From contig JACRHD010000060.1 in NCBI GenBank assembly GCA_016234115.1, positions 1-41,134 on the forward strand: a stretch of 41,134 bases of DNA. The letters are read 5' to 3'. The translations under genes and the position numbers were made by a program. This stretch comes from Nitrospirota bacterium. Lineage in GTDB: Bacteria > Nitrospirota > Thermodesulfovibrionia > UBA6902. The stretch's first letter is position 1. Each line of letters opens with the position of its first letter. The notes beneath the pieces are model-generated. The model worked only from the letters and a program-made list of their open reading frames with translations, was not told the DNA's origin and made no database searches. Shown here piece after piece: positions 2,637 through 7,605 of this stretch.

Positions 2637-3425
2637 CTAATTTCCCGTAAGGACCTGATACCACATCCTGATGCCCGTGACCGCGATAATCAGCGCGATG
2701 GCGAGTCTCAGGTATTTTGTATTTATCTTCTTGCTCGCCCTCCCGCCTATCTGCGCTCCCGGTATGGTCCCTATGACCAGGGCTATCGCGTACGGCCAGA
2801 TTATCTGGCCGGTCGCCATCTTGCCTATGGTGCCTGTAAGCGCACCCAGGAAGACAATCCCGAGGGTGCTGCCGATGACGATCCGCGTCGGGATATTCAG
2901 CAGATAGATCATGACAGGGATATATATGAATGCGCCGGGCGCCCCCACCATCCCGCCGAATAAACCTATCGCGAGGCTTACCAGCATTGCAAGCTTCTTA
3001 TTATATCGGATGCCTTCAGGACTGATATCTCCGCCCTGCTCCCTTTTAGGGACAAACATGACTATGGACGCTATGACCGCCATCGTAGCGAAGATCGCCA
3101 GCAAAAAGTCGCTTTTTGTGTGCTTTGAAAACAACGAGCCCGCAAGGTTTCCGACCGCATTGCAAATCCCCATATAGAGGAGAAGCGACTTGCTGACAAA
3201 CCGGTTCTTGTGATGAACGATCAATCCTGAAAGAGAAGCTGAAAGGACCTGCACCATGCTGACTGCGGCCACCTGTTTCATGTCTAACTGCCCGACGCCG
3301 AGAAGGGGCGGAACGTACAGGAGCAGGGGGATCATGAAGATGGCCCCGCCAAGTCCGAGAAGGCCGGAAAGAAAACCGCCGCCGAGACCTAATGCAACAA
3401 GAGTAATCAGGAAAGATAAATCCAT
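2637..3425 (-). CDS. TauE/SafE-family anion exporter
   Basis: 262 residues, strongly hydrophobic, with about eight membrane segments in the two-repeat arrangement of TauE/SafE (Pfam family of sulfite, sulfoacetate and taurine-related exporters). The glycine-rich GLGGGFLSGLLGLGG near the N-terminus and GLFGGMVGAPGAFIYIP in the second half are the characteristic repeats. Twelve nt separate it from sqr upstream, so it is co-transcribed. In this operon it most likely exports an oxidised or sulfane sulfur product such as sulfite or thiosulfate; the substrate is inferred from context only. Confidence 0.85.
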   Translation of the reverse strand: MDLSFLITLVALGLGGGFLSGLLGLGGAIFMIPLLLYVPPLLGVGQLDMKQVAAVSMVQVLSASLSGLIVHHKNRFVSKSLLLYMGICNAVGNLAGSLFSKHTKSDFLLAIFATMAVIASIVMFVPKREQGGDISPEGIRYNKKLAMLVSLAIGLFGGMVGAPGAFIYIPVMIYLLNIPTRIVIGSTLGIVFLGALTGTIGKMATGQIIWPYAIALVIGTIPGAQIGGRASKKINTKYLRLAIALIIAVTGIRMWYQVLTGN

Positions 3426-3437
3426 ACGGGTTCTATT

Positions 3438-4640
3438 TCAGTACTTTCCCTTTAAAATTCTGTTCCAGTAAAGCCAGGGCATGACATACTTTATCAGCAG
3501 CCACATACTGTAACGCTCCTTGGCCGGGTCCAACGGGAAGGTGGGCAGCAGTTTATTGTCATGGTCGAATTCGGCCAGGACGAGTTTGCCGTATCCTGTG
3601 ATAAGCGGGCATGAGGTGTAGCCGTTATACTTATCAGGTAAAGATTTCTTGTCGATGGCGGACAGCAGATTGTCGACCAGGACCGGGGTCTGCTTATGTA
3701 CTGCCGCCCCTGTTTTCGTATCACCCGTATTTGCGACATCTCCCAGACTGAAGATATTTTTATACCGGTTGTGCTGAAGGGTCGCTTTATCGACGTCGAT
3801 CCATCCGAAGGGATCGTCTTTGACCGCAAGCGGGCTGTTCTTGATAAAATCCGGGGCCGCCGCCATCGGCGATACGTGCAGCATATCATATTGGGCCGTG
3901 ACCCGCTCTTTGCTTTCGCCTTTAGTCACTTCGAAGACAGCTTCTTTGGCGTCACCCCTTATTTCAACTAATGTGGACATGTAGGTCACTTTGATGCCAT
4001 ACCGCTTGACTACTTTCAACAGTAATTCATTGATCTCCTTCACTCGCAGCATCCCCGGCTTCCCGGTGAAGAAAGAAATATCCGCTTTGTCCAGTATGCC
4101 CCTTCTTCTGAAATTGTCCGCCGCGAGATACATTATTTTTTGCGGGGCGCCGCCGCATTTATTGAACCCCCCCGGCTGAGTAAATACGGCCTTGCCGCCC
4201 TGAAAGTTCTTAATGCATTCGTAAGTGTAGGGCGCCGTATCGAAGCGATATATCGAGCAGACCCCGTTTTTCCCCAGCGCCTCGGGCAGGCCCTTCACGG
4301 CGTTCCATTTAAGCTGCGCCCCGCAGCAGACGACCAGGAAATCATAAGTGATCGAGTCGCCTGATTTGGTCATAATCATATTGTTATCGGGGTCGAATTT
4401 ATCAGCGCCGTCTTTTAACCATTTCACCCCTGAAGGAATGTAATCGGCCTCGTCCCGGACGGTGCTGTTGATGTCGAAGACCCCCCCGCCCACGAGTGTC
4501 CAGCCCGGCTGGTAGTAATGTTTATCCGAAGGCTCGACGATTGCGACATTAAGAGACGCATTTCTGCGTAACAACTGCGCCGCGACCGAGAGTCCCGCAT
4601 TCCCTCCCCCAATGATGAGGACCTGATAATGTGATTTCAT
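3438..4640 (-). CDS. sqr: Sulfide:quinone oxidoreductase, type II-like
   Basis: 400 residues. N-terminal FAD-binding GGGNAG (residues 11-16), later LGDVANT for the flavin. Two cysteines, C162 in KCGGAPQK and C344 in TSCPLITGYGKLVLAEF, sit in the contexts seen in the type II (mitochondrial SQOR-like) family, where they form the sulfane-sulfur-carrying redox pair. A hydrophobic helical C-terminus (WLLIKYVMPWLYW) fits membrane attachment near the quinone. The start is the Met immediately before the Rossmann fold; the longer frame overlaps a repeat. It should oxidise sulfide and pass a persulfide to an acceptor while reducing quinone. Neighbours tusA and dsrEFH could be the acceptors. Unlike them, it keeps ordinary cysteines. 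Confidence 0.9.
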   Translation of the reverse strand: MKSHYQVLIIGGGNAGLSVAAQLLRRNASLNVAIVEPSDKHYYQPGWTLVGGGVFDINSTVRDEADYIPSGVKWLKDGADKFDPDNNMIMTKSGDSITYDFLVVCCGAQLKWNAVKGLPEALGKNGVCSIYRFDTAPYTYECIKNFQGGKAVFTQPGGFNKCGGAPQKIMYLAADNFRRRGILDKADISFFTGKPGMLRVKEINELLLKVVKRYGIKVTYMSTLVEIRGDAKEAVFEVTKGESKERVTAQYDMLHVSPMAAAPDFIKNSPLAVKDDPFGWIDVDKATLQHNRYKNIFSLGDVANTGDTKTGAAVHKQTPVLVDNLLSAIDKKSLPDKYNGYTSCPLITGYGKLVLAEFDHDNKLLPTFPLDPAKERYSMWLLIKYVMPWLYWNRILKGKY

Positions 4641-4668
4641 GTTTGCACCCTTGACCTTTCCGTTAATA

Positions 4669-4706
4669 GTGTCCGTTGTCCGTGTCAGTCCACGGTTGCC
4701 GGACAC
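4669..4706. repeat. Intergenic palindrome between tusA and sqr
   Basis: GTGTCCG pairs with CGGACAC and, inside, CCGTG pairs with CACGG. It fills the 75-nt gap and could stabilise or attenuate the message between the two genes. Confidence 0.55.
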
Positions 4707-4715
4707 GGTTCACCT

Positions 4716-4949
4716 TTACTTTTCCGCCCTTATTCTGTATTCTCCGTCCGCGACCTGGGTCGTATTTACCGTGTATCCTTCCCCGCTTAAAATCCCCGGA
4801 ATCTCATCTATTGCGGACGGACAGTCCACAAGCACGTCTACTACGGTGCCCTTCTCCGAATTTGCAAGTTTTTCCAAAACTTGTGGAATTACATATTTCG
4901 GATAAGGTCACATCGTGTTTCTTATATCTACTTCAAAATGCTCAGCCAT
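4716..4949 (-). CDS. TusA/SirA-family sulfur carrier with Sec in place of the CPxP cysteine (Sec14)
   Basis: Reading through TGA at 4910-4908 gives 77 residues with an ATG start. The motif becomes DIRNTM-U-PYPKY, the TusA signature C-P-x-P with selenocysteine at the first position. That cysteine (Cys19 in E. coli TusA, as I recall) carries the persulfide, so Sec would form a perselenide-type S-Se carrier. The rest follows the short beta-alpha TusA fold, with a second cysteine in VDVLVDCPSA. It lies 16 nt after yeeE, like the YeeE-YeeD and YedE-YedF pairs. A hairpin 22-38 nt past the first base of TGA fits a SECIS. With the in-frame TGA it is invisible to ordinary gene finders. Confidence 0.88.
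4872..4888 (-). promoter_or_regulatory. Candidate SECIS hairpin, tusA
   Basis: TTCCA-CAAGTTT-TGGAA: 5-bp stem with a 7-nt loop containing AGUU. It starts a little further from the TGA (offset 22) than in the other five genes, but within the range described for bacteria. Confidence 0.6.
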
Positions 4950-4965: not shown

Positions 4966-6168
4966 TTACTTTTTTCCGACTTTTTTCTTTCTGAATTCAA
5001 TCCAGGCCACAAAGAAATAAAAGGCTGTAAGCGCCGACAGTGTAATGATCAGGGCGCCGCCCCACCCGAATTTGTCGGGTAAAAATACAGACGGTCCGTA
5101 AAGCCCGCCTGTCCCGACCTGAGCGCCGTAAATCGGCACCCATAAGCCGGCAACGAGCATTGCGCCCAATACTGCAAACCAGTGCCTGATATATCCCTCG
5201 GCAGACCTGCCGATTATCCCGACTGCTCAGCCGCCTGTTATCACCATGCCGAAACCGAATATCGCCCCCCCGATTATACTGTGCCATCCCAGGGGCAGTA
5301 CGAACATCTCTGCGGACCTGAACCCGTTTGCCTTAATAATCGTAAATCCGACTACCCCGATAGCGAGACTTATCATGAGAGAACGCATGGTCTCATTTTT
5401 CTTTGTAGTAAATATTTCCCTGAAGGCGCCGCAGAGACAAAAAGCGGACCGCTGAATGACAAGACCAAAGGCCGCGCCGAAAAGGATTATCCCTCCGAAG
5501 AGGTTCTTCCCCATCAGAAAATAGATTGATGCCGCGGCAAACAGGACAATCAACATAAAAGTCCCTATCATTGGCTGCCGGGATTTGTATTCTTTCTCTA
5601 CGCCGACGGACGTCTTGGGCAGTATCTTTAATTCAGCTACTAATTTCCGGGCCTTTTTCCGGCCCTGCCACATCAATACCCTGCCGCCGAAATATCCGCC
5701 GATGATCAGTCCCCCCATCATATAGAATCCGCTCAGAGACAGGGACATAATCGCCGAATAAAACCCTCCGATAATGCAGGCGCCGACCATAAAGCTGCCG
5801 ATGCCCATCAGCGCCCCTCCGATAAACCCCTGGAGATAGCCTGCGGCAGTATCTTTTCTGATCTTGAATTGTCTGGTCAACAGCGCTGCCGAAAGAAATC
5901 CCAGGATCAGGCCGAAATTCAGGACACTGATTATGCTTTTATGGGGCAATTCCAGCGAACCCCACGGCGGCTGTATATTCAGTCCGAGGAGCCTGTACGT
6001 CCATATACCCCAGTCTGCCATGGCAGGATAAACTCCGCCTATCGGCATAATGAATAAAAACAGCAATATGTTCAGAAACGCCAATAATACTCCGCCTCTA
6101 AGCTTGGACCACGTCTTACCGAAGTTTTTTTTATAAATATTTTCATACAGGTATTCGGACAGTGTCAT
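4966..6168 (-). CDS. YeeE/YedE-family sulfur (or selenium) compound transporter with Sec314
   Basis: Reading through TGA at 5229-5227 joins two frames into 400 residues, full length for the family, with about ten membrane helices. The internal duplication is visible: GGALMGIGSFMVGACIIGG (C131) in the first half and GGAIFGFGMVITGG-U-AVG in the second. In the thiosulfate transporter YeeE, three pore cysteines are needed, and Sec314 appears to take the place of the last one. C244 and C246 form an additional CLC pair. ATG start with an upstream GGGGG stretch as ribosome site. Next to tusA it resembles YeeE-YeeD (thiosulfate uptake) and YedE-YedF (selenium metabolism). The SECIS-like hairpin is the best of the six. 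Confidence 0.9.
5198..5213 (-). promoter_or_regulatory. Candidate SECIS hairpin, yeeE
   Basis: TCGGC-AGGTCT-GCCGA: perfect 5-bp stem with loop AGGTCT, the same loop as in E. coli fdhF and at nearly the same distance (offset 16 nt from the first base of TGA to the stem). Confidence 0.82.
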
Positions 6169-6200: not shown

Positions 6201-6464
6201 TTAGAATATTCCGACTACCTTATCGCTGTTTGTCATTAAATCAATAAGCTCATGGTAATCGATCGGCTTGCCTGATATCTCATTTTTATCAATGCCTCTC
6301 ATCTGAAGTTCATCGCCAAGCAGGTACAGGCTGCCGTCATTCAGGTCTCTCGACGCATAAACCGCATTTTGCATCAGGCAAATGTCGGCGTTCATATCTT
6401 TTGCCAGCTTGTAGGCCGTCTTAAATTCCTTTGTGTCCGGCGAGCTTGAGATAAGGAACAACAT
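6201..6464 (-). CDS. DsrH/TusB-family sulfur relay protein
   Basis: 87 residues, the usual size for DsrH/TusB. The motif ICLMQNAVYAS in the middle matches the LMQDGVY region around the single conserved cysteine of the family. It is the smallest member of the DsrEFH/TusBCD heterohexamer, which moves persulfide sulfur in the cytoplasm. Gene order dsrE-dsrF-dsrH is that of sulfur oxidisers and of the tus operon. It is 55 nt after dsrF and 32 nt before yeeE. Confidence 0.8.
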   Translation of the reverse strand: MLFLISSSPDTKEFKTAYKLAKDMNADICLMQNAVYASRDLNDGSLYLLGDELQMRGIDKNEISGKPIDYHELIDLMTNSDKVVGIF

Positions 6465-6519: not shown

Positions 6520-6870
6520 TTAGAAAATCATTACCGCCTGCGCTTCCCTTAATGCCTGTTTCAAAACCGGGCCGTCATCGATCCTGACGCCCTCGACGAG
6601 GTCGTCTTCGTTGAGCTTGTATTCTCTCAGGGAAGCTTTATCGGCATAGATCTCCATTTCCCCTGACAGAAGCTCAAGACTTTCACCAAGACCCGTGAAG
6701 CCTGTATCGCCGGCCTCCTGATTTTTCTTTGCCGTCAAGACGCCGCTGTCTATTAAAAATAATGTAGCCTTATAGTCCGCGCTCGAAGCGCCTCCTGCAT
6801 GCCGCACCGCTTCTGCCGCCTCGACTGTGCCGTAGGGCGATTTTCTTAAGATGACGAGAAGATTATCCAT
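6520..6870 (-). CDS. DsrF/TusC-like DsrE-family protein, cysteine-free
   Basis: 116 residues of the DsrE/TusCD alpha-beta fold. It begins MDNLLVILRKSPYGTVEAAEA, like TusC/DsrF starts, and ends in a hydrophobic strand. It contains no cysteine at all, so it should be a structural partner in the DsrEFH complex and not a sulfur carrier. ATG lies two nt after the dsrE stop, so translation is probably coupled. Confidence 0.78.
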   Translation of the reverse strand: MDNLLVILRKSPYGTVEAAEAVRHAGGASSADYKATLFLIDSGVLTAKKNQEAGDTGFTGLGESLELLSGEMEIYADKASLREYKLNEDDLVEGVRIDDGPVLKQALREAQAVMIF

Positions 6871-6872
6871 AA

Positions 6873-7232
6873 CTACATCCCGAGATTAATAAAAATATCC
6901 GACTCTTTCATTAACGTAAACAGGCCCTTCAGGGCGCCCTTCCCGGCGCCTTCAATATAATTTTCTCCCGCGATACAGCGGAAGTTCACGCAGCCTCCTC
7001 AGAGGTCGACTTTCAGTCCCTTGTCCATGAGGGCCCTGAAACCGTCTGATGCATGAGGCAGTCCTTTTCCTTTCTGTCCTTTAAGAAAGTTATATACGCC
7101 GTCCGCCGAGGCGACAAGGTGAGTTTCGAGCCCTTTATCAAGGGCGGCCCCGGCAAGCTTCATGGCAGTGTACGTATTTTCATAACTGTATGGAGAGGTA
7201 TTCAGAAACAACGTAATTCTTTTTGACATCAT
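6873..7232 (-). CDS. DsrE-family sulfurtransferase with Sec78
   Basis: Reading through TGA at 7001-6999 gives 119 residues. Start ATG (7232) overlaps the arsR stop as ATGA and has a GGAGAGAGGAA ribosome site. The N-terminus (ITLFLNTSPYSYENTYTAMKLAGAAL) is typical of DsrE/TusD. The region KVDL-U-GGC places Sec at residue 78, the number of the active cysteine in E. coli TusD and A. vinosum DsrE as I recall, in a U-G-G-C redox pair with C81. The frame after TGA continues the fold to a TAG, ending IFINLGM. A 6-bp SECIS-like hairpin follows. It should accept or donate sulfane sulfur with TusA and DsrF/DsrH. Confidence 0.9.
6966..6983 (-). promoter_or_regulatory. Candidate SECIS hairpin, dsrE
   Basis: TTCCGC-TGTATC-GCGGGA: 6 base pairs including one G-U, loop TGTATC with a G near its start, 18 nt from the first base of TGA. 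Confidence 0.7.
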
Positions 7233-7570
7233 TTCCTCCTCTCTCCGGGATACTTTCCCTTCTTTGTTACAGGGCAACATTCGGGCGCCGGTAATTCCAG
7301 GGGATAATCTTTCTTCAGGATTTCAAGCAAATCAGGCACCATCGCATTTCTCAGAAAATAGCAGCGCAATCTCCCGTCTACAAAGTAATCAATAAGCCCT
7401 GCAAGTCTTAACGCCGATAGATGCTGAGAGATATTGGATTGTCTCAGTTCGAGAAATTCTTCAAGATCGCTGACGCATTTCACCCCTTTTGTCAGCTCCC
7501 CGAGAATAGCAATTCTTGCAGGGTGGGCTATTAATCTGAGGATATCGATACGATCCGCCACATCTCTCAT
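7229..7570 (-). CDS. ArsR/SmtB-family repressor, SqrR/BigR-like thiol sensor
   Basis: 113 residues from ATG 7570 (115 from ATG 7576). Winged-helix core: HPARIAILGEL, then the recognition helix RQSNISQHLSALRLAGL, then the wing VDGRLRCYFL. Two cysteines, in VKCVSDL and in PECCPV, lie 66 residues apart, the same spacing as the C41-C107 pair of the persulfide sensor SqrR. It heads the sulfur operon and overlaps dsrE. Its likely operator, ATTC-N8-GAAT, covers the operon's -10 box and both candidate start codons. I prefer ATG 7570 because the predicted transcript starts there. It should therefore repress its own operon until sulfide or persulfide oxidises the cysteines. Confidence 0.85.
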   Translation of the reverse strand: MRDVADRIDILRLIAHPARIAILGELTKGVKCVSDLEEFLELRQSNISQHLSALRLAGLIDYFVDGRLRCYFLRNAMVPDLLEILKKDYPLELPAPECCPVTKKGKYPGERRK

Positions 7571-7605
7571 ATTCATATATTAGAATATGTGTATCTAAAT
7601 ATCAA
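7568..7605 (-). promoter_or_regulatory. Promoter and operator of the sulfur operon
   Basis: -35 TTGATA (7605-7600), 17-nt spacer, -10 TAATAT (7582-7577), predicted start at 7570. The 22-bp palindrome CATATTC-N8-GAATATG (7568-7589) holds ATTC-N8-GAAT, the SqrR/BigR-type box, and encloses the -10. Bound ArsR would block polymerase directly. Confidence 0.7.

Follow-up and report, generated by a model that had tools for sequence, protein, structure and literature searches.

The window, i.e., the entire stretch of 41,134 nucleotides that was analyzed (contig JACRHD010000060.1), originates from a deep-subsurface bacterium of the phylum Nitrospirota and carries on its minus strand an operon in the order ArsR-DsrE(Sec)-DsrF-DsrH-YeeE(Sec)-TusA(Sec)-SQR-like-TSUP. 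Its genes, the UGA codons read as selenocysteine (Sec), and the associated hairpins are located as follows:

7229-7576, minus strand: ArsR/SmtB-family regulator, the first gene of the operon (family profile matches)
6873-7229, minus strand: DsrE-family protein, 118 aa, with Sec77 in LUGGC (PF02635, E = 4.1e-17)
6999-7001, minus strand: UGA codon for Sec77 of DsrE
6965-6984, minus strand: SECIS-like hairpin of dsrE, CUUCCGC-UGUAUC-GCGGGAG (pair counts and recoding test)
6520-6870, minus strand: DsrF/TusC-like subunit (family profile matches)
6201-6464, minus strand: DsrH/TusB-like subunit (family profile matches)
4966-6168, minus strand: YeeE/YedE-family membrane transporter, 400 aa, with Sec at residue 314 (ATG at 6168; PF04143 match)
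5227-5229, minus strand: UGA codon for Sec314 of YeeE (in-frame TGA, codon 314), equivalent by sequence to Cys91 of S. thermophila YeeE
5198-5213, minus strand: SECIS-like hairpin of yeeE, UCGGCA-GGUC-UGCCGA (P = 0.0075 against synonymous recoding; peak of synonymous-site conservation)
4716-4949, minus strand: TusA-family sulfur carrier, 77 aa, with Sec14 in UPYP, the CPxP position (PF01206, E = 2.9e-11)
4908-4910, minus strand: UGA codon for Sec14 of TusA
4865-4883, minus strand: SECIS-like hairpin of tusA, CAAGUUUU-GGA-AAAACUUG (P = 0.010)
3438-4706, minus strand: FAD oxidoreductase, closest to type III sulfide:quinone reductase (NF049943, 215.7 bits, cut-off 525)
2637-3425, minus strand: TauE/SafE (TSUP) family permease (PF01925, E = 5.1e-47)

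Both YeeE (PF04143, Sulf_transp; E = 2.2e-41, 142.9 bits) and TusA (43.5 bits) score above the Pfam cut-offs of their families (27 and 28.6, respectively). Sec314 of YeeE lies in the context GGUAVG in the second half of the internal duplication, and the respective column contains Cys or Sec in 18 of 18 relatives. Sec14 of TusA is the first position of the CPxP motif, aligned with CPYP of E. coli YedF and CPIP of StYeeD, where it matches C17, whereas the column of Sec77 of DsrE is occupied by Cys in the Cys-type DsrE of L121/L127 and in E. coli TusD. The Sec sites are, in other words, the pore cysteine of YeeE, the CPxP cysteine of TusA, and the sulfur-binding cysteine of DsrE.

The unit had originally been described as a pair of YeeE(U) and TusA(U). 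The pair stands, including the Sec-containing TusA next to YeeE, but the description missed the larger operon with a third selenoprotein, DsrE(Sec), and with DsrF, DsrH, ArsR, and the SQR-like protein. Three Dsr subunits, including DsrE with its sulfur-binding position, are syntenic with tusA and yeeE, and judging from its sequence, the operon represents the yeeE-tusA-dsrEFH type II ("YTD") cluster for sulfur transfer in a form that contains Sec. The genome also encodes DsrA and three copies of DsrC. The SQR-like protein has its best score with the NCBIfam model of the selenoprotein subtype of type III SQR, below the cut-off; its gene contains no UGA ahead of the stop, and the protein no Sec.

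Several lines of evidence support the reading of the UGA codons as Sec. A search of Nitrospirota genomes (E ≤ 1e-40) retrieved 11 YeeE matches with one TGA in six genomes (one of these matches also has a TAG) and three further matches that represent Cys forms. Together with two genes from a public assembly, there are 13 distinct YeeE homologs with TGA at the position of codon 314. Bacterial SECIS elements are hairpins located 16–37 nt downstream of the UGA, with a G in the first two loop positions; in the window, an in-frame UGA at a Cys column is combined with a downstream hairpin that fits this rule of spacing and loop. The hairpin of yeeE starts at nt 17 (counted from the U of UGA) and includes AGGUCU, which makes it fdhF-like by its loop, as had been predicted, and GGUC is found at nt 23–26 in 13 of 13 Sec-YeeE genes. 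In the codon alignment, the six most conserved of 388 windows of 12 codons all begin at codons 314–319.

When hairpins were searched irrespective of their position and compared with synonymous recodings, P was 0.0075 for YeeE, 0.010 for TusA, and 0.0225 for DsrE, as opposed to a median of 0.53 for ten Cys homologs. In dsrE, 295 of 322 hairpin pairs are formed over 46 sequences (mean of synonymous recodings, 206), and the yeeE hairpins of the type found on contigs C24 and C21 of the same genome form 58 of 60 pairs if a bulge is allowed; unlike in the position-free search, the structures in this pair-count test (yeeE, dsrE) were picked by inspecting the same sequences. Minimum free energies calculated for the 48 nt that follow each UGA fail to distinguish the majority of Sec genes from synonymous recodings of the same genes. 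The apical-hairpin test separates the genes of the window but fails for most yeeE hairpins of the C24/C21 type because a bulged U interrupts the contiguous stem. Rfam produced no match within the window at the gathering threshold.

If the UGAs were true stops, the parts downstream would have to be separate or decaying reading frames. These parts, however, are conserved and keep the invariant residues of the family, the conservation of the hairpins exceeds what the protein code requires, the UGA aligns with Cys in the relatives, and the genome encodes both SelB (above cut-off) and tRNA-Sec (above gathering score). This leaves the true-stop reading close to refuted and the recoding of UGA to Sec well supported.

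The position of Sec314 in the pore can be derived from the YeeE of S. thermophila. In this protein, Cys293, Cys91, and Cys22 form a line perpendicular to the membrane, and thiosulfate is reported to be captured by C17 of StYeeD, termed the 'fourth cysteine' (PMC11073785); Cys91 and Cys293 are reportedly indispensable (PMC11582611). A phmmer comparison with PDB entry 6leo aligned residues 228–335 of the YeeE in the window with residues 6–112, and residues 85–162 with residues 246–324; in the sequence alignment, C244, U314, and C131 are the equivalents of Cys22, Cys91, and Cys293, respectively. The domain order is of the YedE type, with the halves swapped relative to TsuA/StYeeE. The protein is colinear with E. 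coli YedE (26% identity over 302 positions, E = 2e-23), and its C-terminal half matches the N-terminal half of TsuA with 63 bits, compared to 6 for the other half.

The predicted structure of YeeE (pLDDT 77) reaches Z scores of 20.2–21.9 with four YeeE structure entries, with a next best score of 6.1 among the structures compared, and the model is consistent with a YeeE fold. These values were obtained with a slower structural aligner because Foldseek alone gave weak TM-scores (0.41–0.50). The aligner pairs chains in order and, if read literally, places Sec314 at the symmetry-related Cys293. The colinear superposition differs from the sequence alignment, which leads to Cys91, because the domain halves are swapped; the half-specific sequence match and the presence of the Cys22 motif only in that half favor Cys91. 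Sec314 takes the position of a pore cysteine under either mapping (Cys91 or Cys293); a location outside the conduction path, which the original prediction had named as its point of failure, was not found. In the Sec-YeeE proteins of L057 and L058, the position of Cys22 is occupied by Gly and GGU is replaced by DGU, so the third pore cysteine may be dispensable in this branch, or the function may have shifted.

The trio of Sec-YeeE, Sec-TusA, and Sec-DsrE occurs in three related Thermodesulfovibrionia genomes (those of the window, L014, and L053/L015) and in two gene orders, with that of the last two differing from that of the window. Other loci combine YeeE(Sec) with DsrE(Sec) in the absence of TusA (contig C24 of the same genome and L055) or with TusA(Sec) only (L013 and L052), and YeeE(Sec) stands alone in several genomes, with neither tusA nor dsrE beside it. 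A separate TusA for the copy on C24 was considered and rejected, as the gap contains no TusA-like reading; in a genome-wide search, the TusA of the window was the only one with a TGA. The cluster copies of L035 and L055 are without tusA between yeeE and dsrE. No obvious TusA is apparent in L035 in any of the three frames read forward through the gap (4308-4501), and in L055, the gap (6246-6283) is too short for a TusA.

In the phylogenetic tree, the 13 Sec-YeeE form a single clade (100/99), with support of 80/88 for its join to the neighboring Cys forms of the same family, Desulfobacteraceae, and SAR324. Sec-TusA was detected in two of the 395 Nitrospirota genomes searched and in the DeMMO2_3 assembly. 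DsrE of the type in the window is much more widespread (96 of 395 genomes) and nearly always encoded with a TGA; the sulfur-binding residue is encoded by an in-frame UGA in about 92 of these 96 genomes (including L072-L101), whereas the four DsrE without TGA read ELCGTC. A dsrA gene is present in 85 of the 96 genomes with DsrE but in only 94 of the 299 genomes without it (Fisher p = 9e-24, a value that ignores phylogeny and overstates the independence of related genomes), which says no more than that the cluster belongs to sulfur-metabolizing lineages.

The operon is best explained as a unit for the import and relay of sulfur that employs Sec as the working residue of three carriers, with a probability of roughly 60%. 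In the chain of events that we infer, including its substrate, its direction, and the residues involved, YeeE would conduct a compound with sulfane sulfur, either thiosulfate or polysulfide, across the membrane via C131, Sec314, and C244. In the cytoplasm, TusA would take up the sulfur on Sec14 and hand it over to Sec77 of DsrE within the DsrEFH complex, from where it would enter the pathway via DsrC and DsrAB. There is precedent in cable bacteria, where Cys67 of DsrE is persulfidated by TusA and DsrEFH type II then passes the sulfur to DsrC (PMC13293266), and in another organism, whose YTD proteins are more abundant during thiosulfate disproportionation (PMC9751629).

The sulfur relay is supported by the equivalence of Sec314 with Cys91, of Sec14 with C17 of StYeeD, and of Sec77 with the Cys of DsrE/TusD, by the synteny of the trio, by the co-occurrence with dsrA, and by the presence of dsrA and dsrC in the genome. 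It is weakened by the several genomes in which YeeE(Sec) has neither tusA nor dsrE as a neighbor, by the replacement of the third cysteine by Gly in two Sec-YeeE proteins, and by the higher scores of YeeE and TusA on families named for selenium metabolism. The selenolate had originally been proposed to change the affinity of the transporter. Selenolates are ionized at neutral pH, and for this chemical reason, a covalent Se–S hand-over at Sec314 seems more natural than a hydrogen bond to a thiol. Carried through the entire chain, this would amount to a covalent Sec-to-Sec relay, in which sulfane sulfur travels as a selenenyl sulfide on Sec314, then Sec14, then Sec77, and import is a group translocation that involves no hydrogen-bonded passage, a version of events that we consider doubtful.

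The selenium-related scores raise the question of whether YeeE and TusA form a pair like YedE-YedF (FdhT-FdhU) that imports a selenium compound (e.g., selenosulfate) for selenoprotein synthesis. The shared domain order of the YeeE in the window and E. coli YedE, as opposed to the swapped halves of TsuA, is in line with this function, as are the NCBIfam scores of YeeE (YedE/FdhT, 132.6 bits; TsuA, 96.3 bits) and TusA (YedF, 40 bits; TsuB/YeeD, 20 bits), all of which remain below the cut-offs, and the fact that the best solved relative of TusA is E. coli YedF. YedE has been proposed as a selenium transporter based on genome context, and YedF/FdhU has been linked to formate dehydrogenase in Campylobacter (PMC5322559). 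However, the scores with the selenium families fall short of the curated cut-offs (YedE/FdhT, NF033796, 132.6 vs. 350; TIGR04112, 16.3 vs. 200), and E. coli YedE falls outside the Sec clade, although its placement is unsure (long branch). Moreover, a yedE deletion in Methanococcus maripaludis revealed no requirement of the gene for any selenium source tested (PMC11097638), and the operon contains DsrEFH and an SQR-like flavoprotein but no gene for Sec synthesis. A selenium route has real backing in the resemblance to YedE/YedF but is the less likely function; a role in sulfur transfer is favored because DsrE(Sec), DsrF, DsrH, ArsR, and the SQR-like flavoprotein are part of the operon.

The ArsR gene stands ahead of the cluster in the majority of relatives, and in L013 it is immediately followed by yeeE-tusA, which there have no DsrEFH beside them. 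This arrangement would also fit a sensing unit, in which the sulfur passed on by YeeE and TusA goes to the regulator of the operon and not to metabolism. SoxT1B has been reported to act as such a signal unit for SoxR in Hyphomicrobium (PMC11582611). Yet most loci possess the whole DsrEFH set and a flavoprotein, which is beyond the needs of a sensor, and several copies of YeeE(Sec) have no ArsR nearby, making this function quite improbable.

The YTD cluster of cable bacteria and sulfur disproportionators (PMC13293266, PMC9751629) has the same gene set as the window, and the working cysteines of its TusA and DsrE are at positions that align with Sec; DsrA and DsrC are likewise encoded in the genome. 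It differs in that the window has Sec in place of the cysteines of TusA and DsrE and of the second pore cysteine, and in the addition of ArsR and a TSUP permease. The text of the YTD papers makes no mention of selenium-containing proteins (PMC13293266, PMC9751629). The TsuA/YeeE-TsuB/YeeD systems of S. thermophila and E. coli (PDB 6leo, 8k1r) share the fold (Z 20–22), the pore cysteines, and an adjacent TusA-type gene, but their domain halves are in the opposite order, and Sec is found in the window at the positions of Cys91 and of the CPxP cysteine. The score of YeeE with the TsuA equivalog of NCBIfam (96.3 bits) is far below the cut-off of 400, and the TsuA domain order is absent. E. coli YedE-YedF has a colinear domain order and an adjacent TusA-like gene but only 26% identity, Cys instead of Sec, and no DsrEFH.

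Sec-containing YeeE (motif GUxSG) and DsrE-like proteins (UxxC) are already listed as selenoprotein families (PMC13188914, PMC9312934, PMC2398784). The listed YeeE/YedE selenoprotein (WP_012471001.1; PMC13188914, PMC9312934) also belongs to PF04143 and has its Sec in the GG(C/U)xSG segment; the YeeE in the window has its Sec at the same segment but reads GUAVG in place of GUxSG, whereas its paralog on contig C21 reads GUVSG. The listed DsrE-like family (PMC2398784, PMC13188914) shares PF02635 and the UxxC motif (UGGC in the window), but the DsrE of the window is the DsrE subunit of DsrEFH and shares its operon with Sec-TusA and Sec-YeeE. TusA/SirA was not found in three published selenoprotein lists, and no matching selenoprotein model of TusA was found in the NCBIfam release checked. 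Both Sec-TusA and the combination of Sec-YeeE, Sec-TusA, and Sec-DsrE appear to be undescribed in the open-access literature.

The locus adds a candidate Sec-containing TusA, and the natural Sec at the second pore position and in the next two carriers offers spectroscopic and mutational handles to distinguish hydrogen bonding from covalent sulfur transfer in the YeeE pore. If UGA is taken as a stop, as in standard gene calling, dsrE of this type reads as truncated in many Nitrospirota genomes, which could distort gene surveys that predict sulfur oxidation. Adjoining the operon on the minus strand (1750-2508) is a gene whose GrdB-like (PF07355) product has residue 159 encoded by an in-frame UGA and is probably another selenoprotein.
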